From: Oleomonas cavernae
Lineage (GTDB): Bacteria > Pseudomonadota > Alphaproteobacteria > Zavarziniales > Zavarziniaceae
Length of the DNA stretch: 64,000 nt
Direction: 5' to 3'
NCBI RefSeq assembly: GCF_003590945.1
Contig: NZ_QYUK01000008.1
Span: forward strand, 62,001 to 126,000
Both the position numbers and the translations under genes were made by a program. Below are positions 2,853 to 43,699 of this stretch, in pieces. Position 1 is the stretch's first letter. Every line of letters starts with the position of its first letter. The notes beneath the pieces were generated by a model. The model was not told the origin of the DNA, made no database searches, and saw only the letters and a program-made list of their open reading frames with translations.

Positions 2853-4421
2853 ATGGCGATCACGCAACGGCTGGAGCTGAGACAAGGCCAGTCGCTGGTG
2901 ATGACGCCGCAATTGCAGCAGGCGATCAAGCTGCTGCAATTGAGCCAGATCGAACTGGCCTCGTATATCGAGCAGGAGTTGGAACGCAACCCGCTCCTGT
3001 CGCGTGACGAGGGGGCCGGCGATACCGCCCCCGTCGAGGGCGAGTGGAACGAGGGCAGCGACAATGCCGATCCCGCCGCCGGCCGCATCGAGGCGGGTCC
3101 CGTCGGGCTGGACCGCGATATCCAGGACCAGAGCGGCCTGGGCGAACGCGCCGCGAGCCTCGAGGAGGCCTATGACAACGTCTTCGGCGACGATGCCACG
3201 ATCGACAAGGCGGCGCACGAGTCGGCCGGTCCCGACGACCTGACGGCGACGAACTGGAGCGCGCTCGGCCCCGGCGGGCGCAGCGACTTCGACGATGGCG
3301 AGACCTCCGGCGATGCACGGCTGGCCTCGGTCACCTCGCTGCGCGACCACCTGATGGGGCAGATGGCCGAACTGGTGCTGGCCCCGGCCGAGCAACTGAT
3401 TGCGGTCAGCCTGGTCGACAGCCTGGACGAGTCGGGTTACCTGACCGAGAGCGTCGAGGATATCGCCCAGCGCCTGGGGACCGAGGAATCCGAGCTCGAA
3501 GCCCTGCTGCAGTATCTGCAGTCGATGCTGGACCCGCCCGGCGTCTTTGCCCGCTCCCTGCAGGAATGCCTGACCATCCAGTGCCGCGAGGCCGATCGCC
3601 TGGATCCGTCGATGGCGGCGGTGCTGGGGCGCCTCGACCTGGTGGCCCGGCGGGATCTCGGCGCGCTCGCCCGCATCGCCAATGTGGACGAGGAGGAAAT
3701 CCTCGAGATCATCAAGGAAATCCGCACCTTAAACCCCAAGCCCGGCCTGGCCTTCGACACCGCGCCGATCCAGACCGTGGTGCCCGACGTCTATATCAGG
3801 CAGGGCCAGGGCGGCGACTGGCTGATCGAACTCAACGCCGACACCATGCCCCGGGTGCTGATCGATCGGCGCTATGCCGCACGGCTGGGCGCCGGCGGCG
3901 CCGACAAGTCGGACAAGGCCTATCTGTCCGATTGCCTGGCCTCGGCGAACTGGCTGGTGAAGGCCCTGGACCAGCGCGCACGGACAATCCTGAAGGTAGC
4001 CACGTCGCTGGCGCGCCAGCAGGACGGCTTTCTGCGCCACGGCATCAGCCATCTGCGGCCCATGAACCTGAAGGCGATCGCCGAAGAGATCGCCATGCAC
4101 GAATCGACGGTCAGCCGCGTCACCGCCAACAAGTGGATCTGGACGCCGCGCGGCCTGTTCGAGATGAAATTCTTCTTCACCGCGGCGATCGGCTCGACCG
4201 ATGGCTCGGACGCCCATTCCGCCGAAGCCGTGCGCCACCGCATCCGCCAATTGATCGACGGCGAGGCGCCCAAGGCGATCCTGTCGGACGACAAGCTGGT
4301 CGAGTTGCTGAAGCGTGAAGGCATCGATATCGCCCGCCGCACCGTGGCCAAATACCGCGAAGCCATGGGCATCGGCTCGTCGACCGATCGGCGGCGCCAG
4401 AAGGCCCTGGGCAAGCGCTGA
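2853..4421 (+). CDS. rpoN: RNA polymerase sigma-54 factor RpoN
   Basis: Recognises -24/-12 promoters and needs enhancer-binding ATPases. The 522-residue product has Region I (LRQGQSLVMTPQLQQAIKLL), an acidic Region II, the core-binding domain, the HTH (HESTVSRVTANKW), and the invariant RpoN box ARRTVAKYRE at about 494-503. ATG follows GGATAGG by four bases. It lies 12 bases after lptB, the common alphaproteobacterial linkage. A likely target in this window is the Nit1C promoter at 41885-41900. Confidence 0.97.
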   Translation: MAITQRLELRQGQSLVMTPQLQQAIKLLQLSQIELASYIEQELERNPLLSRDEGAGDTAPVEGEWNEGSDNADPAAGRIEAGPVGLDRDIQDQSGLGERAASLEEAYDNVFGDDATIDKAAHESAGPDDLTATNWSALGPGGRSDFDDGETSGDARLASVTSLRDHLMGQMAELVLAPAEQLIAVSLVDSLDESGYLTESVEDIAQRLGTEESELEALLQYLQSMLDPPGVFARSLQECLTIQCREADRLDPSMAAVLGRLDLVARRDLGALARIANVDEEEILEIIKEIRTLNPKPGLAFDTAPIQTVVPDVYIRQGQGGDWLIELNADTMPRVLIDRRYAARLGAGGADKSDKAYLSDCLASANWLVKALDQRARTILKVATSLARQQDGFLRHGISHLRPMNLKAIAEEIAMHESTVSRVTANKWIWTPRGLFEMKFFFTAAIGSTDGSDAHSAEAVRHRIRQLIDGEAPKAILSDDKLVELLKREGIDIARRTVAKYREAMGIGSSTDRRRQKALGKR

Positions 4422-4592: not shown

Positions 4593-5201
4593 ATGGCACA
4601 CATGAAGCTGATCATTTCCGGAAAACACATCGATGTCGGCGACGCCCTTCGCAGCCACGTGACCGAGCGGTTGGGGCTGGTCGTCGGCAAGTATTATGAC
4701 CGGCCGATCGACGCGACCGTGACGTTTTCCCGCCAGGCTCACCTCTTCCGCACCGATTGCACGGTGCATTTCGGGGCGGGCCTGCTGGTCAATGCCCACA
4801 GCGACGGCACCGAAATCTACGCGAGCTTCGATGGCGCCGCTGAGCGCATCGAAAAACGCCTGCGGCGCTACAAGCGCCGGCTGAAGGATCACCACAACGG
4901 CGCCAAGCGCGCGGTCGAGCCGGCCTTCAACTACACGCTGGCGCCGCACGATGACGACGAGGCCGAGGAGCCGCACGTGGACGGCGCCAACGGCACCCCG
5001 CTGGTGATCGCCGAAAGCGATTCCCAGATCGAGACCCTGACCGTGTCGGAGGCGGTGATGCGCCTGGACCTGGGCGAGCATCCGGCGATGATGTTCCGAA
5101 ATAGCGCCAACGGCGGCCTGAACGTGGTATATCGCCGCCCGGACGGCAACATCGGCTGGATCGAGCCCAATCAGCGGGCCGTCAATGGCGCTCGGGCGTG
5201 A
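4593..5201 (+). CDS. hpf: Long-form ribosome hibernation promoting factor
   Basis: Binds 30S subunits and promotes inactive ribosome dimers in stationary phase. The 202-residue length fits the long form. The N-terminal S30AE domain (about 4-105, KLIISGKHIDVGDALRSHV) and the C-terminal dimerisation domain (about 145-198, ending VYRRPDGNIGWIEP) are joined by a linker. ATG 4593 and ATG 4602 (MKLIIS) are both possible starts; neither has a strong Shine-Dalgarno. It sits between rpoN and ptsN as in many alphaproteobacteria. Confidence 0.92.
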   Translation: MAHMKLIISGKHIDVGDALRSHVTERLGLVVGKYYDRPIDATVTFSRQAHLFRTDCTVHFGAGLLVNAHSDGTEIYASFDGAAERIEKRLRRYKRRLKDHHNGAKRAVEPAFNYTLAPHDDDEAEEPHVDGANGTPLVIAESDSQIETLTVSEAVMRLDLGEHPAMMFRNSANGGLNVVYRRPDGNIGWIEPNQRAVNGARA

Positions 5202-5211
5202 GGCTTATCCC

Positions 5212-5675
5212 TTGGATTTGAGTTCGATCATCGGCCCAGAGGGCGTCATTGCCGGCCTCAAGACGGCCACCAAGAAGCAGGCGCTTCAGGAATTGGCCGC
5301 CCGTGCCGCCGAAATCACCGGCGTGCACGAGCGGACCATTTTCGACATCCTGCTGGAGCGCGAGCGCCTGGGGACGACCGGGGTCGGCCAGGGCATCGCT
5401 ATCCCCCATGGCAAGCTGGCCGAGATCGATCGCCTGTTCGGCCTGTTTGCCCGCCTGGACCAGCCGATCGATTTCGAATCGATCGACGAACAGCCGGTCG
5501 ACCTGATTTTCCTGCTGCTGGCCCCCAGGGCGCCGGTGCCGATCACCTCAAGGCCCTGGCCAAGGTCTCGCGCCTGCTGCGCGACCGCGACACCTGCGAA
5601 AAACTGCGCCACGGCGACTCGGTCGAAGCGATCTACTCGCTGCTCACCGAACCCAGCCAGCCGCACGCAGCTTAA
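5212..5675 (+). pseudogene. ptsN: PTS IIA-like nitrogen regulatory protein PtsN, frameshifted
   Basis: EIIA-Ntr of the nitrogen PTS, a phosphorylated regulator of K+, carbon and nitrogen responses. The N-terminal frame is canonical, with the active-site His motif GQGIAIPHGK, but coding switches frame at the C5 run 5522-5526 inside LLLAP. Adding one C restores QGAGADHLKALAKVSRLLRD and a stop at 5675, giving 154 residues from the TTG at 5212, the usual PtsN length. That TTG follows GTGAGG by a normal distance; ATG 5185 would overlap hpf. As written, the product would lose its C-terminal third and run to 5754. Sequencing error is plausible. Confidence 0.85.
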
Positions 5676-5701
5676 AACACCGAGGGTCCCTCCTCACCCA
5701 A

Positions 5702-5725
5702 CCCTCTCCTCCCAGGAGGAGAGGG
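5702..5725. repeat. GC-rich hairpin, dispersed repeat family A
   Basis: Perfect 11-bp inverted repeat CCCTCTCCTCC / GGAGGAGAGGG with a two-base loop, between the convergent ptsN and DUF1150 genes. A second small hairpin (GGCACCGTGCC) follows. Similar CCCTCTCC/GGAGAGGG elements lie at 24409-24553 and 58687-58793. It may also terminate transcription from either side, but there is no clear T-run. Confidence 0.7.
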
Positions 5726-5824
5726 CTCGGCACCGTGCCCTTAAGGGCCATTGAGGCCCCGCGAAGCTTCAGCGAAGCGAGCCAAGGCGGCGAAGGCCGC
5801 CGCCCGGCGTTTGAGGGCCAACCA

Positions 5825-16100: not shown

Positions 16101-16403
16101 ATGATCAAGTCTGAGCTGATCCTGCGCCTGGCTGCCGCCAACCCCCATTTGTATCAACGCGACGTCGAACGCATCGTCTCCACCATCTTCCAGGAAGTGG
16201 CCGACGCCCTGGCGCGCGGCGACCGGGTCGAAATCCGCGGCTTCGGCGCCTTCTCGGTGAAGAGCCGGCCCGCCCGCACCGGCCGCAACCCGCGCACCGG
16301 CGAGGCGGTGGACGTCTCGGAGAAATTCGTGCCTTTCTTCAAGACCGGCAAGGAATTGCGCGAGCGCCTGAACCCAGGTGGCGGCGACGACTCCGAGGGC
16401 TGA
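16101..16403 (+). CDS. ihfB: Integration host factor subunit beta
   Basis: DNA-bending protein that pairs with IHF-alpha. The 100-residue product is HU/IHF family: [40 protein letters not shown] and [11 protein letters not shown], ending in [12 protein letters not shown]. The ISxxYQRDVE-type N-terminus and the sppA neighbour favour beta over HU. IHF commonly assists sigma-54 promoters, relevant to the Nit1C promoter in this window. Confidence 0.93.
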
Positions 16404-36075: not shown

Positions 36076-37343
36076 CTAGCCCGCGGCCCGCAATGCCGGC
36101 TTGGCCTGGTGGCCGAGGATCTGCTCGGCGAGAAAGCCCGCGTCGCGGGCGACGCCGGAGAAGCGGCCGGAGCCCCAGGTGTAGAGCCAGGGCAGCCCCA
36201 GGAAATACAAGCCCGGAACGCTGCTCACCCCGCGCTTGTGGGTGGGGTAGCCGCGGCCGTCGAAGGCGGGGATTTCGACCCAGGTGAAGTTGGAGCGAAA
36301 ACCGGTGGACCAGATCACCGTGGTGATGTTTTCCGCGATCAGGTCGATGGCGGCCGGCTCGCTCGCCGGCGTCCACAGCGGGACATAGGGCGCCTCGACC
36401 GGCGCCTCGATCCCGTTGGCCGCGATATGGGCGTCGATGCCGGCCTTGATCCGTTCCGCCGTGGCATCGGCGCCGTCGAGGTTGCGGACAAGGTCGGGCG
36501 CGAAGCGCAACTCGCTGCCCTGCGCCGCGCCCAGGCGGCCATAGAGCTTCATGCCCTCCAGGGCGAACTTGCGCAGGTCGATGTCGCGGCCGCCGTCACG
36601 GCCGGTGACATAGTGATTGGCCTTGCCGCGCACCTTCTCCTTCAGGGGATGCTGGTCGATCGGCATGTCGTAATGGCCCATGTCGTGCAGCCATTCGACC
36701 ACATCCTTGCCCCGGTAGCGGCGGGTGACGCGGGGCGCGCTGCCGACGCACAGATGGGTCTGGCGCCCGGCCAGGTGCAGGTCCTCGGCGATCTGGCAGC
36801 CCGACTGGCCGGAACCGACCACGAGGACGGCACCGGGGGGCAAAGCCTCGGCGTTGCGGTATTCCGACGAATGGAGCTGGCGGATCGGGGTCGGCAGGCG
36901 TTCCGCGATGCGCGGGATCGAGGGGATGTGATAGCCCCCACGGCCAGCACCACCTGGTCCGCCGTATAGGTGCCGGTCTGGGTCTCGAGTTCGAAGCCCG
37001 CACCCAGGCGGCGCAGGGCTTTCACCTCGACACCTTCCAGCAGGGGCGGCTGGACCAGGTCCACATAGGCATCGATATAGGCCAGGATCTCGTTTTTCTT
37101 CATGAAACCCAAGGGGTCGCTGCCGTTGTAGGGGAAGCCCGGCAACTGGCATTGCCAGTTGGGCGTGACCAGGCAGAAGCTGTCCCAGCGTTCGCTGGAC
37201 CAGATATGACCGCGGCGATGCTTCTCGAACACCAAGTGGTCGATGCCCTGCTGCTTCAGGCAATAGCTCATGGACAGGCCGGCCTGGCCTCCCCCGATGA
37301 CGAGGACGGGATAGTGGCGGCGGGCGGGATCGATCTTGGTCAT
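36076..37343 (-). CDS. nitH: Nit1C flavin-dependent monooxygenase NitH (MSMEG_0569 type, apparent frameshift)
   Basis: FAD/NADPH monooxygenase of the Nit1C cluster. The N-terminal frame has [20 protein letters not shown] (FAD) and [20 protein letters not shown]. Coding then moves frame at the C5 run 36935-36939 and continues with [29 protein letters not shown] (NADPH) and [15 protein letters not shown]. One extra base there gives 422 residues from ATG 37343, restoring AVGGYHIP. It is the last gene of the minus-strand cluster, ten bases after nitG. Confidence 0.88.
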
Positions 37344-37353
37344 GGGCGGGGTC

Positions 37354-37641
37354 CTATATCTCGAAGCCTTCGACGACCACGGTGGCGTCGGGCCGATGGG
37401 CGAAAGTGGCGGCGGTTGCCTCGATGCGGGCGAGCTGGCCCAGGGCGCGGGAACAGGGGAAGCCGTATTTCTGGCGCACCCGCTCGCTGGCGGCGGCGAG
37501 TGCCGTGCGGCTGATCTCCAGGAATTGCGCCAGGGGATAGGGCGTGCCGGGATCCAGATGGTCGGCGATCACCGAGGATGGCGAATAGCAGGACTCGGTC
37601 GCGCCATCGGGCCAGCGGACGCGGAAGCGCAGTTCAGGCAT
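37354..37641 (-). CDS. nitG: Nit1C small protein NitG (MSMEG_0570 family nitrogen starvation response)
   Basis: A 95-residue protein matching the MSMEG_0570 family: MPELRFRVRWPDGATESCYSPS, LARTALAAASERVRQKYG-like stretch (residues 45-60) and FPCSRALGQLARIEATA near the end. Its start overlaps the nitF stop by eight bases. Biochemical function unknown; the family is found almost only in Nit1C clusters. Confidence 0.88.
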   Translation of the reverse strand: MPELRFRVRWPDGATESCYSPSSVIADHLDPGTPYPLAQFLEISRTALAAASERVRQKYGFPCSRALGQLARIEATAATFAHRPDATVVVEGFEI

Positions 37642-38611
37642 GGCGGGCGAACTCCTCGCGCGGCGGGCCGCAGCCGATCAGCGGCGAGGCCGCGAAATCC
37701 CACAGGGGAACCGCACCGGTTGCGTCGCTGAGGCGGACCAGGCCGCTGGCGTTGGTGGTGCCGAAGGCGGCGCAGGCGATGCCCGCCTGGGCGAAGCGCG
37801 CCTCTACGGCAGCAACCTTGTTCGGCGCCACGCTGAAGATATAGCCGAAGCTGGGGAAGGAGATCAGCCAGCGCTCCAGCGCCACGCCCTCGGGCCGGGG
37901 AATCCGGGCCGGGTCGAGATCGGCGCCCAGGCCGGAACATTCGAGCAGCATCAGGGCGGTGCCGACCGCGCCGGCCATGCTGATATCCTTGGCGGCGCGG
38001 GCGAGGCCCGCCTCGGCGATCGCCGGCAGCAGTTCGATGTCGGCGCGCAGGCGGGCGCCGGGGGCGCCGCTGCTGGCATCCCAATAGGGGTGCGGCTCGC
38101 GGTAGCGGCCGCGCAGGTCGATCGCCGCCAGCAGTACCTCGCCGGGCCTCGCATCGAAGCTGGTGAGGAGAGACTTGGCCCGGCCCAGGATCGCCACCGA
38201 CAATTGCTCGCCCGTATTGCGGGTGTTGCTGTGGCCGCCGACGATGGGCACGCCGTAGGCGGCGGCCCCGGCCGCCAGGCCCTCCATCAAGGGGCGGGCA
38301 TGGGCGGCATCCCGGCTCCACAGGGCATCGACCACGGCGGTGGGGCGGCCGCCCATGGCGGCAATGTCGCTGACATTGACCATGACGCCGCAGTAACCGG
38401 CGAACCACGGCTCCGCCGCCACGAAGTCGTTGATGAAGCCTTCGATCGCCAGCAGCAGGAAGCCGTCGCCATCGGGGATGGCGGCGCAATCGTCGCCCAC
38501 CGCGATGGCGCCGGCACCAAGACCAAGGCCCGACACGACCGCGTCGATATCGCGCTTGTGGGCCAGGCCGCGGCTGTCCTGGATATGGCGGGCGAGGTCG
38601 ACGAGGCTCAT
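37634..38611 (-). CDS. nitF: Nit1C AIR synthase-related protein NitF (sll0787 family)
   Basis: A 325-residue PurM/SelD-like protein. It has the ATP-binding pattern AIAVGDDCAAIPDGDGF, VMVNVSDIAAMGGRPTAVV, GVPIVGGHSNT and AAKDISMAGAVGTALML, as in AIR synthases. The sll0787 family lies in Nit1C and presumably phosphorylates or activates an intermediate. ATG 38611 overlaps the nitE stop (ATGA). Confidence 0.9.
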   Translation of the reverse strand: MSLVDLARHIQDSRGLAHKRDIDAVVSGLGLGAGAIAVGDDCAAIPDGDGFLLLAIEGFINDFVAAEPWFAGYCGVMVNVSDIAAMGGRPTAVVDALWSRDAAHARPLMEGLAAGAAAYGVPIVGGHSNTRNTGEQLSVAILGRAKSLLTSFDARPGEVLLAAIDLRGRYREPHPYWDASSGAPGARLRADIELLPAIAEAGLARAAKDISMAGAVGTALMLLECSGLGADLDPARIPRPEGVALERWLISFPSFGYIFSVAPNKVAAVEARFAQAGIACAAFGTTNASGLVRLSDATGAVPLWDFAASPLIGCGPPREEFARHA

Positions 38612-39150
38612 GCCGCCCGCCGGATCATGGTAACGAAGCCGGTCTCGCCCGCGCCGAAGGGCGGGTAATGGTCGAGGTCGGCTTCCATGAAATGATGGGG
38701 CAGGCCGTGGAGGGTGATCTCCTCCAGGGTGCGCCAGTGCAGGCGGTGAAACAGCTCGGCATTGCGCGCCTGGACCTGGGCCAGGAAGCGGTGGCAGCCG
38801 CGGGCATGGGCGGAGGACACTGCCAGCCGGATCAGGCCGGTGCCGATGGCGCCCATGCGGCGATAGCTGAGATCGACCGCCAGGCGCGAACCGGCCCAGA
38901 CGCCGGGTGCGTCTTCGTGAATGCGCACGGTCCCCACCACATGGTCGGGCACGCCGAAGATCGGGGCCAGCGCCACCAGGGTGATGGCGCGGGCGTCGGT
39001 CGCGTCGCGGTCGTCCCCCTCGAAGATGCGCTGTTCGCGGCAGAACACTTGGGCCCGCAGGGCCATGGCCCCTGCCCGCTCCCAATCCGCGGTGGCGAAT
39101 TTCACCGTGCATTCGCCGGCGAGGTAGGGCAGGACCGGCTCGAACAGCAT
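38608..39150 (-). CDS. nitE: Nit1C GNAT acetyltransferase NitE (MSMEG_0567 type)
   Basis: A 180-residue N-acyltransferase of the Nit1C cluster. It has FCREQRIFEGDDRDATDARA, VVGTVRIHEDAPGVWAGSRL and RRMGAIGTGLIRLAVSSA as the acetyl-CoA region. The ending includes LHGLPHHFMEADLDHYPPF. In some genomes NitE and NitF are one fused protein; here they are separate and overlapping. Confidence 0.88.
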   Translation of the reverse strand: MLFEPVLPYLAGECTVKFATADWERAGAMALRAQVFCREQRIFEGDDRDATDARAITLVALAPIFGVPDHVVGTVRIHEDAPGVWAGSRLAVDLSYRRMGAIGTGLIRLAVSSAHARGCHRFLAQVQARNAELFHRLHWRTLEEITLHGLPHHFMEADLDHYPPFGAGETGFVTMIRRAA

Positions 39151-39154
39151 GGCC

Positions 39155-40252
39155 CTAATCCTCGAAGCTGGAGAGGGCGGAACAGGCCCCGCACTTGCCG
39201 CAGCCGGCCTTGATGTCGGCCGAGCGCAGCGCGGCGGATTTCAGCATGGCGCCCAGGGGCGCCAGGATCTCGCGCATGAAGGCCGGCGACGGGGCGGGAT
39301 GATCTTCCAGCGGCGTGCCCGAGATCGGCACGAAGGGCACCACGAAGGGATAGACGCCCAGGCCGATCAAGGTTTGCGAGATTTCCAGGATCGCTTCCCT
39401 GGTATCGCCCAGGCCGGCCAGGATATAGGTCGAGACCTGGCCCCGGCCGAAGACGGGCACCGCCACCTTGAAGGCGTCCAGGTAACGGGAAATCGGCACG
39501 CTGGCCTTGCCCGGCATGATGCGCGCCCGCACCTCCGGCGTTACCGCTTCCAGGTGCATGCCCAGCGCATCGACGCCGGCCGCCTTCAACCGCTGGAACC
39601 AGATGTCGTCGTCGGGCGGCTCGCACTGGGCCTGGATCGGCAGGTCGACGGCGGCCTTCACGGCAAAGGCGCTGTCGCACAGGATCTTGGCGCCGCGGTC
39701 GGTGGCATTGGGCGTGCCCGTGGTCATCACCATGTGCTTGACCCCGTCCAGCAACACGGCGGCACGGGCGACTTCCGCCAGTTGCTCCGGCGACTTGTGG
39801 GCGATCGTCCGGCCGGCCGCCAGCGACTGCCCGATCGAGCAGAACTGGCAGGTCTTCTTGCGGCTGCCGTAGCGGATGCAGGTTTGCAGCACCGTGGTGG
39901 CCAGTACGTCACGGCCGTGCAGGACCGCGATCTTGGAATAGGGAATGCCGTCGAAGGTCTGCAGGGCATAGAAGCGCGGGGACAACGGGAACGACACCCG
40001 GCCGACATCGACACCGTCGCGCGCGATCGTGCTGTAACCCTCCGCGTCCGGGCGGCTGGCGACGTAGGGCGAGGCGAAGGCGCCGGCGGTATGCACCGGC
40101 ACCATCACGGTGCGGCCCTCGACCGTCATCGCCTTGTGATCCGACGGCCCCGCGCCGCCGCGCCGGCTGGCGGCGCCGGCGCTGGGATCAGCCAGCCGAA
40201 CCCCGAAGGACTGCAATTCGGTGATCAGGGATTGGGTCGCTGTCGGTTTCAT
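39155..40252 (-). CDS. nitD: Nit1C radical SAM protein NitD (MSMEG_0568 family)
   Basis: A 365-residue radical SAM enzyme. The cluster-binding cysteines are in [15 protein letters not shown], spaced CX9CX2C instead of the canonical CX3CX2C. A second Cys group, CGKCGACS, lies at the C-terminus and may bind another cluster. [14 protein letters not shown] and PIQAQCEPP follow. ATG 40252 has AAGGAG seven bases upstream; GTG 40258 is an alternative. It lies between nitC and nitE. Confidence 0.9.
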
Positions 40253-40263
40253 GGACACACTCC

Positions 40264-41346
40264 TTAAAACGAACGGCCTTGGGCCTTGACCTCGGCAGGG
40301 CGGACACGATCTTCCTGACCGTCATCCCGGCGAAGGCCGGGATCCACTGTCGTGGAGTACTGGGACGGACCCGTATCGCCCCCGCCGTGGATCCCGGCCT
40401 TCGCCGGGATGACGGTGTTGTGAGTGGTGACGACCGGGCTGGTGGCACGGTTGTCGTGGTTGAGGCTGAGCAGTTCGGGCCGGGCGTAGTGGCCGACCGA
40501 ATCCATCATGCGTTTGCGCTTGGTGATCAGGCGCATGTCGAGGTCGGCGACCAGGATGCCCTCGCCTGAGGTCAGCGGCGGCACCAGGTGGCTGCCCTCG
40601 GGCGAGACAATGGCGGTGTGACAGCCGCCGCGCAGGCCCTTCTGCAATTTGGGATCGGGTGTGATCGCGTCGATCTGCGCCTCGCTCAGCCAGCCGGTGG
40701 CATTGACCACGAAGCAGCCCGATTCCAGCGCGTGATGGCGGATCGTCACCTCCATCTGTTCGCCGAAAATCGGCCCGACCATCGAGCCGGGGAACTGGCT
40801 GGCGTGAATTTCCTCGTGCTGGGCCATCAGCGTGTAGCGGGCCAGCGGGTTGTAATGCTCCCAGCAGGCGAGCGCGCCGACCCGGCCCACGGCGGTCTCG
40901 ACCACGGCCAGGCCTGAACCGTCGCCCTGGCCCCAGATCATCCGTTCGTGGAAGGTCGGCGTGATCTTGCGGCGCTTGAGGGCCAGCGTGCCGTCGGCAT
41001 CGAAGATGAGCTGGGCATTGTAGAGCGAGCCGTAATCGCGCTCGTTCACCCCCAGCACCACGACGATGCCGTGGGCGCGGGCCGCGGCCGCCACCGCCTG
41101 GGTCACGGGACCCGGGACGGTGACGGCATGCTCGTACAGGCGCAGATGGTCCTGGCCTGTCGAGACCGGCGGATGGACGAAGGAGAAATAAGGGTAGTAG
41201 GGCACGAAGGTCTCGGGGAAGACCACGAATTGGGCGCCCTTCCCCGCCGCCTCCGCGATGGCATTGCAGACCCGTTCGAGCGTGCGCGCGGGCTGCTCGA
41301 TATCGGGGGCGATCTGAACCGCCGCTGCCCTGACGACCCGTGACAT
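40264..41346 (-). CDS. nitC: Nit1C nitrilase NitC (sll0784 family) with repeat-derived C-terminus
   Basis: Carbon-nitrogen hydrolase, 360 residues. The catalytic triad is Glu in [12 protein letters not shown], Lys in [13 protein letters not shown] and Cys in [15 protein letters not shown]. The native domain seems to end near residue 310 after [12 protein letters not shown]. Residues about 311-343 (VIPAKAGIH ... [10 protein letters not shown]) are the translation of palindromic repeat B, so the tail is acquired. In other bacteria Nit1C is linked to growth on cyanide as nitrogen source, with this nitrilase essential. It is one base from the nitB gene. Confidence 0.93.
40321..40414. repeat. Palindromic repeat family B inside the nitC 3' end
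   Basis: Arms GTCATCCCGGCGAAGGCC and the complementary GGCCTTCGCCGGGATGAC enclose a 94-base element within the last 30 codons or so of nitC, in frame. The same family lies in intergenic sequence at 25846-25950 and, as a half copy, at 43716-43745. Confidence 0.88.
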
Positions 41347-41347
41347 C

Positions 41348-41830
41348 TCAAAGCGTCCAGGTGTTCAGGATGAAGGCGCCATCGGCCCGGTGCAGCAGGA
41401 TCAGGTCCAGCACGTCGAGCGGGCTGATCGGGGTGATGCCCGGGATCAGCGAGGGCTCGCCGTGGCCGTAGAGCGCCTGGAGCGCGAAGCGGCAGGCGAA
41501 GACCTTGCCGCCCTCGCCCATGAACTTGACCACCTGGTTGTTCATCGCCAGGTGGCCGGGGAAGGCCTCGTCGCCCAGGGTGGGGAAGCCGCGTTGCACG
41601 CCAAGGGTCACACCCGGGCCATAGAGCAGGACCGAGGTCTCGAAGCCCTTGCGCAGCAGGCGGGTGGCCTGGAGCAGGTTGACGAGGCCGATCGAGCCTT
41701 CGAAGGCCACGGTGTGGAAGGTGACCAGGGCCTTTTCGCCCGGCTTGGCCTTCACGTCCTCGAACAGCTTCTGCTCGTAGTCGACGAAGAAGTCGCCCTT
41801 CTGGTGGGCTGGCTTGGTAACGGCAGGCAT
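41348..41830 (-). CDS. nitB: Nit1C protein NitB (MSMEG_0572/sll0783 family)
   Basis: A 160-residue protein and first gene of the cluster. [45 protein letters not shown] and [20 protein letters not shown] match the family found at the head of Nit1C clusters; the fold is probably DsrE-like (inference). Its function is not known. A consensus sigma-54 promoter lies 55 bases upstream and should drive nitBCDEFGH. Confidence 0.9.
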
Positions 41831-41884
41831 TGCATCTCTCCCAGGTTGTCAGGCGAGCACCGTAAGGGTGGTCGTCGGAGAAAT

Positions 41885-41900
41885 TGCAAACGCCGTGCCA
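41885..41900 (-). promoter_or_regulatory. Sigma-54 promoter of the Nit1C cluster
   Basis: On the minus strand the bases read TGGCAC-GGCGT-TTGCA, an exact match to the -24/-12 consensus (TGGCAC-N5-TTGCA). The predicted transcription start is about 40 bases before nitB. Nitrogen control through RpoN and an NtrC-type activator fits a nitrogen-scavenging cluster. No clear NtrC enhancer site was found by eye in 41901-42240. Confidence 0.88.
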
Positions 41901-42241
41901 GTCAAGTTTCTGCACAATCGATAGTCAGAATCGAAAAAATGCGATCAATTTTTCCAGTCAATGACCGGATTCCGCCCGAAAAGCGCCGGATCACTTTTTG
42001 GGCACTGCGACTCATTTAGGCGGGCCGCAGTTCATTTTCTGTGCAGCGCCCCTCCTCCCGCAGAACCGCGAGAAAGCCCCGGAAAGCCGCCGGAAGGCCC
42101 CGGGAAAGCCTTTCGGGCTCTGGCGCGGCCGCCATTCCAAGTTTTCTTGCGCAGCGCAGCAATCGGGTGTTTCATAAAGTCATCCAACGGCGGTAATGCG
42201 GCCAAGCCTGGGCCGAGACGCAGGGTGCGACCGAGATCAAG

Positions 42242-42281
42242 ATGCAGTCAATTGAACCTGAAATGATCAAATTGACTGCAT
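42242..42281. promoter_or_regulatory. 12-bp inverted repeat upstream of the MocR-type gene
   Basis: ATGCAGTCAATT (42242-42253) and AATTGACTGCAT (42270-42281) form a perfect inverted repeat with a 16-base spacer, ending 20 bases before the MocR start. It is the likely autoregulatory operator. The 471-base gap 41831-42301 otherwise holds the Nit1C sigma-54 promoter and nothing else recognisable. Confidence 0.72.
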
Positions 42282-42301
42282 TCAAGTTTGGGCATTGATC
42301 G

Positions 42302-43699
42302 ATGGGGCGCAAACTGGTCGGCTGGATCCCGCAGATCGGCAAGAGCATCGGGCCGCACTACCAGGCCATCGCCGACGCGATCGAGGCCGACATCCGCATC
42401 GGCCGCCTGGCCCCGGCCGACCGCCTGCCGCCGCAGCGGGTCCTGGCCCAGCAACTGGGCCTGAACTTCACCACCGTCGCCCGCGCCTATGTCGAGGCGC
42501 AGCGCCGGGGCCTGATCGAGTCCCGCGTCGGCGCCGGCAGCTTCGTGCGCGGCGAGGCGACCGCCAGCCCCAAGCCCGCCCGCCGCCGCGACCTGGTCGA
42601 CCTGACCATGAACCTGCCGCCCGAGCCCGAAGACCCGGTGCTGCTGGAGCGCATGCGCCTGGGGCTGGAGGAGATCGGCACCAACCTGACCGCGCTGCTG
42701 CGCTACCAGGGTTTCGGCGGCGCGCCGGCGGACAAGGACGCGGCGGTGACCTGGCTTGCCCGGCATCATCGCCTGGAGGTGCCGCGCGACCGGGTGCTGG
42801 TCTGCCCCGGCGCCCACAGCGCCCTGCTGGCAACCTTAAGCGTGCTTGCCAAGGCGGGCGACGTGGTCTGCTGCGAGGACCTGACCTATCCCGGCATCCG
42901 CGCGCTCACCGCGCAACTGGGGCTGCAACTGGTGGGCCTGGCCCAGGACGGCGAGGGCATCAGCGCCGATGCCTTCGAGGAGGCGTGCCGGCGCCATGCC
43001 CCCAAGGCGCTCTATTGTAACCCCACCCTGCTCAACCCGACCACGGCGACGATCTCGGCGCGCCGGCGCGCGGCGCTGATCGCGGTGGCCCGCCGGCATG
43101 GCGTGAAGATCATCGAGGACGATGCCTATGGCAGCGTGCCGGTGGCCCCGCCCCCGCCGTTCGCTGCCCTGGCCCCCGATATCACCTATTACGTGGCGGG
43201 CCTCGCCAAGTGCCTGGGTGCGGGCCTGCGCGTCGCCTATCTGGCGGCACCGGACAATCGCAGCGTCTGGCCCCTGGCCGCGTCCCTGCGCGCCGCCACC
43301 GTCATGGCCTCGCCGATCACGGTGGCGATCGCCAGCCACTGGATCATCGAAGGGATAGCCGAGGATGTGCTGGCCGCGATCCGCCAGGAGTCGCGCGCCC
43401 GCCAGGGCCTGGTGCGCGAGATCCTGCCGGCCGGCAGCTACCTGACCGACCCGGAAGCCTTCCACCTCTGGGTTTCCCTGCCCACACCCTGGAGCCGCTC
43501 GAGCTTTGCCGATCACATGCGCTCATCCGGCATGGGCGTGGTGGTGAGCGACGCCTTCGCCGTCTCCCGCCCGCCGCCCGAAGCCGTGCGCGTCTGCCTG
43601 GGCGGCGTCGTCGGCCGCCAGGAGACGAGGCACGCGCTGGAATTCCTGGCCGACGCGCTCGCCCACCCCTCGCCCGCGGTGGCGTCGGGGATTATTTGA
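42302..43699 (+). CDS. MocR/PdxR-type GntR family regulator with aminotransferase-like domain
   Basis: A 465-residue transcription factor. The N-terminal GntR winged HTH (about 15-85) has LPPQRVLAQQLGLNFTTVAR. The C-terminal fold-type I PLP domain (about 100-460) has YCNPTLLNPTTATIS, IIEDDAYG and Lys in YVAGLAKCLGAGLRVAYL as the PLP anchor. It is divergent from Nit1C across 471 bases and preceded by a perfect inverted repeat, so it may control itself, the nit genes, or both. Its effector is presumably an amino acid or amine bound as a PLP aldimine. Confidence 0.92.
   Translation: MGRKLVGWIPQIGKSIGPHYQAIADAIEADIRIGRLAPADRLPPQRVLAQQLGLNFTTVARAYVEAQRRGLIESRVGAGSFVRGEATASPKPARRRDLVDLTMNLPPEPEDPVLLERMRLGLEEIGTNLTALLRYQGFGGAPADKDAAVTWLARHHRLEVPRDRVLVCPGAHSALLATLSVLAKAGDVVCCEDLTYPGIRALTAQLGLQLVGLAQDGEGISADAFEEACRRHAPKALYCNPTLLNPTTATISARRRAALIAVARRHGVKIIEDDAYGSVPVAPPPPFAALAPDITYYVAGLAKCLGAGLRVAYLAAPDNRSVWPLAASLRAATVMASPITVAIASHWIIEGIAEDVLAAIRQESRARQGLVREILPAGSYLTDPEAFHLWVSLPTPWSRSSFADHMRSSGMGVVVSDAFAVSRPPPEAVRVCLGGVVGRQETRHALEFLADALAHPSPAVASGII

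Follow-up and report, generated by a model that had tools for sequence, protein, structure and literature searches.

A predicted, conserved sigma-54 promoter with phased MocR-type repeats upstream of the nit1C operon of Oleomonas cavernae

The nit1C operon of Oleomonas cavernae, which serves the use of nitriles and cyanide, is preceded by an exact -24/-12 element that is very probably a functional sigma-54 promoter, and direct repeats, predicted to be bound by a divergently encoded MocR-type regulator, lie upstream of it at intervals fixed to the -24 element and not to the start codon. Taken as a whole, it is reasonably likely that the operon is activated through NtrC and sigma-54 and that this activation is modulated by MocR on the phased repeats. 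The original prediction, which concerned the promoter and its tie to nitrogen status, had missed both the divergent mocR gene and the phased repeats. All features discussed below (Table 1) are located in a 64,000-nt stretch of contig NZ_QYUK01000008.1, referred to here as the window.

Table 1. Features of the nit1C locus and its wider surroundings, in window coordinates
Feature	Position	Strand	Basis or remark
Sigma-54 -24/-12 element, TGGCACG-GCGT-TTGCA	41885..41900	-	Exact match; conservation before nitB loci
MocR-type repeat, promoter-proximal, AATTGATCGCATTT	41937..41950	-	Matrix score 17.3; 48 nt upstream of -24 T
MocR-type repeat, distal, CATTGACTGGAAAA	41950..41963	-	Matrix score 14.3; 61 nt upstream of -24 T
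Repeat near mocR, AATTGACTGCATCT	42240..42253	-	Matrix score 17.4; one arm of inverted pair
Repeat near mocR, AATTGACTGCATTC	42270..42283	+	Matrix score 18.0; 18 nt from its end to mocR start
Candidate sigma-70 promoter	TTGATC 41948-41943, GACTAT 41926-41921		Spacer 16; -35 inside proximal repeat
MocR-type regulator, 465 aa, GntR winged helix and aminotransferase class I/II	42302..43699	+	PF00392, PF00155
nitB, MSMEG_0572/Sll0783 family nitrogen starvation response protein	41348..41830	-	TIGR04044, 279.4 bits, cut-off 109.85
nitC, Nit6803-family nitrilase	40264..41346	-	TIGR04048 above cut-off
nitD, MSMEG_0568-family radical SAM protein	39155..40258	-	TIGR04043 above cut-off
nitE, GNAT acetyltransferase	38608..39150	-	TIGR04045 above cut-off
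nitF, AIR-synthase-like protein, start approximate	37634..38605	-	TIGR04049 above cut-off
nitG, MSMEG_0570 family	37354..37641	-	TIGR04042 above cut-off
nitH, flavin-dependent oxidoreductase, two frames	36076..37343	-	TIGR04046 1-136 and 127-400, each below cut-off
rpoN	2853-4421		
PTS EIIA-2 gene in ptsN place	5185-5754		
ihfB-like ORF	about 16101-16403		Recognised by eye from translation

Sigma-54 promoters carry GG at -24 and GC at -12 with a standard spacing, the consensus being TGGCACG-N4-TTGCW. Both dinucleotides occur at that spacing in TGGCACGGCGTTTGCA (41900-41885, minus strand), which has 0 mismatches to TGGCACGNNNNTTGCW and is the sole exact match to it in the window. The element had been predicted to be exact and to stand at a suitable distance from nitB, and both statements hold: 54 nt separate its end from the nitB ATG, and the geometry of the -24/-12 element predicts a transcription start at 41874. 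When up to two mismatches are allowed, the pattern has 8 matches in the window versus 11.7 expected; with no excess of near-matches, the promoter claim depends here entirely on exactness and place. The same lack of excess would suit a match arising by chance, with the operon read from another promoter, but this explanation is rendered very improbable by the recurrence of the site in relatives (see below) and by the genome-wide counts, in which TGGCAYGNNNNTTGCW is found at 7 places in 5.64 Mb, 5 of them with C at Y, versus 0 for the reversed pattern. Another of the genomic places precedes a gene with hydrogenase small-subunit matches below the cut-offs, and an activator gene is located nearby (L112, L008).

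Downstream of the element, nitBCDEFGH form one operon-like row, as in other Nit1C clusters; nitB through nitG exceed their NCBIfam cut-offs, and nitH is split into two pieces below cut-off by either a frame break or an assembly error. The cluster is reportedly essential for the growth of Pseudomonas CECT5344 on cyanide. The genome itself groups in one genus with G058, G185, and G282. The occurrence of rpoN, ptsN, and ihfB in the same window had also been taken to support nitrogen control. An rpoN gene, a PTS EIIA-2 gene, and an ihfB-like ORF are indeed present, but they are ordinary neighbours 25-39 kb away, rpoN-hpf-ptsN and rpsA-ihfB being standard housekeeping neighbourhoods, and their proximity was rejected as evidence for sigma-54 control on the grounds of housekeeping synteny.

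Comparison with other nitB loci bears out the sigma-54 reading of the element. From at least 386 nitB relatives, the best 80 were kept and split by record title into 32 cyanobacterial loci and 48 others, and a promoter was scored if it lay no more than 300 nt upstream, had at most three mismatches, and kept both GG and GC unchanged. Among these best 80, a like site precedes nitB in 45/48 non-cyanobacterial loci and in 0/32 cyanobacterial loci, and the 45 sites have 0, 1, 2, or 3 mismatches in 11, 17, 12, and 5 cases, respectively, two of the three-mismatch sites (L057 and L063) being doubtful. RpoN was present in 14/14 non-cyanobacterial genomes tested and in 0/2 cyanobacterial ones, and the site was found in hosts with RpoN and not in hosts without it, except in three sphingomonads (L019, L023, and L030); these are the three misses among the 48, and they have RpoN in the genome but no sigma-54 site. 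In a phylum-wide sample, 18/398 genomes matched nitB, 16 of them over the cut-off, and the site was present in 15 of the 16, L126 being the miss and the oddly placed site of L120 being doubtful. The loci left after pruning are still partly relatives, so none of these counts represents independent events. In a collection of plasmids, 515 records (374 of them from Klebsiella) were found to have a nitB relative, and the one Klebsiella plasmid stretch that was read contains a sigma-54 site and a MocR match.

The gene divergent to nitB encodes a regulator of the MocR type, with both its GntR winged helix and its aminotransferase class I/II domain scoring over cut-off. Its Lys303 stands in the place of the aminotransferase lysine and aligns with a lysine of MppQ that we take to have a PLP role, making it a candidate PLP-binding lysine by alignment. 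Identity with the ectoine regulator EhuR was considered and rejected (NF052286, 432.5 bits versus a cut-off of 480). NitA-type loci have an adjacent gene for an AAA+ sigma-54 activator; the divergent gene here is instead mocR, the product of which has no AAA+ domain. Moreover, none of the genome's matches to PF00158, the sigma-54 activator domain, is located inside the window, and tblastn searches with eight activator proteins other than NtrX gave no match near nitB.

This linkage of mocR to nitB is widespread. A MocR relative is divergent to nitB in 44/48 non-cyanobacterial loci among the best 80 of at least 386 nitB relatives; three of the four exceptions are Rhizobium genomes with a 56%-identical mocR copy elsewhere, and the fourth is a Sorangium locus (L034) with an activator gene upstream of nitB in place of MocR. 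In a class-wide sample, nitB was present in 9/289 genomes, and the adjacent divergent gene was the genome's best MocR match in 9/9, while the phylum sample has a divergent mocR at 15/16 nitB genomes and an activator at L129. By the 44/48 and 15/16 counts, the MocR-type layout is commoner than the NitA type among the sampled nitB relatives. In a MocR tree of 73 rows, from which the duplicates L133, L134, and L136 and fragments of 380 residues or fewer were left out, 58/59 nit-linked rows and three relocated rows group together with a support of 94/86, below the tool's star. The MocR of L158, from Acetobacter, falls outside the nit group on a long branch; in this locus, which is on an Acetobacter pasteurianus plasmid, the MocR-type gene is annotated in the same direction as nitB, and there is no sigma-54 site. 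Some MocR-linked loci (L019, L023, L030, L108, L126, L158, and L159) have no sigma-54 site, so MocR is not dependent on sigma-54. The three sphingomonad loci among them retain both MocR and the repeats described next.

A direct repeat, ATTGAnYGCAT, emerges de novo upstream of nitB, and a random-seed motif search yielded ATTGAnTGcAT, on either strand, as its leading motif. The core, TTGANYGNA, has 96 matches versus 2.7 expected in 49 upstream regions and is not enriched in the 32 cyanobacterial regions (1 versus 1.3 expected). With relatives included, the distances of the repeats upstream of the -24 T centre on 26.5, 37.3, 48.8, and 60.8 nt. In a set of 54 loci, compiled by omitting 11 near-identical loci and the activator-type L034 and L129, at least one repeat is present 20-70 nt upstream of -24 in 49 loci and none in the other five sigma-54 loci. 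On an 11.5-bp lattice, the repeats of these 54 loci reach a concentration (R) of 0.85 when distances are taken from -24 and of 0.38 when they are taken from the ATG, and random offsets per locus gave a maximum of 0.41 in 2000 trials; the lattice follows the -24 element, not the start codon. Many loci also show a further group of MocR-type repeats, ~100 nt beyond the first and thus some 143-160 nt upstream of -24 (relatives included), which is perhaps used for mocR itself or for looping.

In the window, the two promoter-side repeats are 13 bp apart, and the proximal one is preserved in outline in L014-L016. The interval between nitB and mocR holds 6 of the 13 matrix matches in the whole window at the threshold used, and two weaker matches, with scores of 11.8 and 10.2, are also located in this interval. 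A strict tandem operator pattern has no match in the genome, and the window's own pair likewise misses that pattern. Between the repeats and the promoter, TCTGACTATCGATTGTGCA (41911-41929, minus strand) is largely conserved among Zavarzinia-type sequences. The plus-strand repeat next to mocR is a probable autoregulatory site of that gene, and three relocated, closely related rhizobial mocR genes retain a repeat copy at -35 of their own start. Together, the phasing and these relocated copies link the repeats, as candidate binding sites, both with MocR and with the promoter, and MocR very likely binds them.

It is conceivable that NtrC, NtrX, or a similar activator occupies the repeats instead, since a place some 50-90 nt ahead of the start could be suitable for one and MocR binding is a prediction made from sequence. 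The repeats go with MocR, however: they have a copy near relocated mocR genes, occur in sphingomonads that have no sigma-54 site, are not enriched in cyanobacteria, are missing from 8/9 NitA-type loci, and are accompanied by a separate NtrC-like motif upstream; this reading is quite improbable. Another means by which MocR could act is through mainly controlling an overlapping sigma-70 promoter, the sigma-54 element being a second promoter. A candidate with its -35 in the proximal repeat is conserved in outline across four Zavarzinia-type sequences, and loci with no sigma-54 site retain MocR and, in part, the repeats. On the other hand, the candidate matches the consensus at 7/12 positions in the window (9/12 in L014, by eye), a sigma-70 scan of 41000-43000 gave no site at the tool's threshold, and throughout the family the repeat lattice keeps step with -24, all of which makes a dominant sigma-70 promoter unlikely.

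The NtrC site has the consensus TGCACYN5RGTGCA, and this was fixed before the region 100-200 nt upstream of -24 was scanned. NtrC-like sites with up to three mismatches occur there in 29/54 loci versus 8.2 in shuffles (maximum of 200 shuffles, 14), and sites with up to two mismatches occur in 10/54 loci versus 0.96 expected, with no excess at either 70-100 nt or, in 41 loci, 200-300 nt upstream of -24. After removal of 11 near-identical loci, sites with up to two mismatches were found in 10/64 non-cyanobacterial upstream regions versus 2.7 expected, as compared with 0/32 cyanobacterial regions (0.7 expected) and 0/39 coding stretches (2.3 expected). An unseeded palindrome search also returned TGCACCAnnnTGGTGCA-like motifs, with a best score of 83.7 from 150 starts versus 31-38 for six shuffled sets of 40 starts each. 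Finally, an NtrC matrix built from 34 loci and applied to 17 held-out loci (L105, L108, and L109 being left out, and some test loci being relatives of training species) gave a combined Fisher p of 1.2e-4, with 4/17 passing 0.05 singly.

The original prediction had tied the cluster to nitrogen status, and for the locus family this is supported by the NtrC-like sites at the usual distance. It does not extend as readily to the window, which has no adjoining activator gene and which, like L014-L016, has no NtrC-like site with up to three mismatches 100-200 nt upstream of -24. The best weak candidate lies at about 41988-42004; its p-value comes from a matrix whose training set comprised these very loci and is biased. 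The genome encodes both NtrC and NtrX. The exact NtrC palindrome occurs at one place in the genome, and around it there is 1 match to the -24/-12 pattern versus 2 by chance, so it supplies no local standard for NtrC. NtrC is probably the activator across the family; because neither the window nor L014-L016 has a convincing site, the NtrC step in this genome is something that we infer with modest confidence.

An arrangement in which the regulator has been exchanged is provided by the NitA-type loci. In the family of G474, nitB was found in 9/198 genomes. All nine NitA-type loci (L129, L162-L169) combine a divergent AAA+ gene with a sigma-54 site of no more than two mismatches, and none of the nine has a MocR match beside nitB or, in the region 100-200 nt upstream of -24, an NtrC-like site. 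The MocR-type repeat is absent from 8/9 of these loci, the exception being L165, where a match resembling the repeat (score 12.2) lies 35 nt upstream of -24, near a lattice position. In its place, TACGAN4TCGTA palindromes, candidate NitA binding sites, occur in 9/9 NitA-type loci and in 0/74 other loci. The promoter is thus retained when the regulator is exchanged, and the regulator's sites for the most part change with it; one promoter under two unrelated regulators constitutes a natural comparison.

An unlinked activator that resembles NitA and has PAS and AAA+ domains (G000, contig C11, 4001511-4003412; L170:8509-10413), the gene for which adjoins a methyl acetate hydrolase gene, could conceivably drive nit1C in trans, leaving MocR a secondary role. 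Over nearly its full length, the protein shares 55-56% identity with the activators encoded beside nitB in G840, G474, and G719, and the window's lack of an NtrC-like site would be in keeping with such a role. A full-length homologue was found in just 8/25 MocR-type genomes searched, however, for which reason this activator was rejected as a general partner; the 99% complete genome of Z. aquatilis has none and yet keeps the promoter. Add to this the confinement of the palindromes to NitA-type loci, and control of nit1C by this protein appears improbable.

The preferred reading, with NtrC as the activator and MocR on the phased repeats, can be put as a sequence of steps. Sigma-54 polymerase would be held as a closed complex at 41885-41900 until an AAA+ enhancer-binding protein opens the complex, and in proteobacterial relatives with the same layout the opener would most likely be NtrC, which would act when nitrogen is limiting and from sites that lie another 100-200 nt upstream. 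The divergent MocR would bind the head-to-tail repeats on one helix face, in register with -24, and would also occupy sites at its own promoter, thereby controlling its own gene. In this way MocR would complement the nitrogen signal with a second one, a small-molecule signal that is probably PLP-linked, which suggests an operon that answers both nitrogen shortage and a second cue. As to how MocR affects the operon, repression that a ligand relieves is favoured. More tentatively, MocR, sitting on repeats along one face of the helix between enhancer and promoter, could be an in-loop gate of the NtrC-sigma-54 enhancer, with a nitrile- or amino-acid-related ligand setting the probability of looping.

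Several known systems resemble parts of this arrangement. For example, two nitB-type genes are described as being under nitrogen control, both of them in other phyla and with other regulators: MSMEG_0572, for which a nitrogen-starvation study lists 17.72 in its transcriptome table and which has upstream DNA bound by GlnR (PMC4222082), and sll0783, which is described as upregulated under nitrogen starvation (PMC3901256). The words promoter, GntR, and sigma are absent from the main text of the original Nit1C paper (PMC1199592). The nit1C cluster of Pseudomonas pseudoalcaligenes/oleovorans CECT 5344 is described as the same operon with a divergent NitA, a putative Fis-family sigma-54-dependent regulator (PMC11049912, PMC6368324), whereas the divergent regulator of the window is a MocR with no AAA+ domain, and the NitA-type loci sampled here have TACGAN4TCGTA palindromes in place of window-type repeats. 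Another MocR has been suggested, partly from the authors' unpublished data, as a repressor of the cio/nit4 cluster in CECT 5344 (PMC8567248).

Direct and/or inverted repeats are described as the majority of operator motifs for MocR regulators such as GabR, TauR, and PdxR (PMC5320631), and the GntR and aminotransferase-like domains of those proteins recur in the window's regulator. The word nitrilase is absent from the main text of that source, and the window-type tandem boxes differ from the GabR, TauR, and PdxR operators in being 11-13 bp apart and in register with a sigma-54 -24 element. No report of MocR repeats phased to a nit1C sigma-54 promoter was found in the MocR, nitrilase, sigma-54, and NtrC literature, represented mostly by titles and abstracts. 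ArgR, acting with NtrC at astC, is another factor placed inside an NtrC-sigma-54 loop. In synthetic NtrC-sigma-54 enhancers, factors within the loop are described as acting by helical phase (PMC4740811), and there, too, a non-AAA+ factor is located between the NtrC site and the promoter. Unlike these constructs, the case proposed here, predicted from sequence, would be natural and conserved and would employ a PLP-type sensor. If the in-loop gate is real, it would match the synthetic quenching enhancers with a case that is natural and conserved, and it would offer sigma-54 transcription a new means of responding to a metabolite signal.
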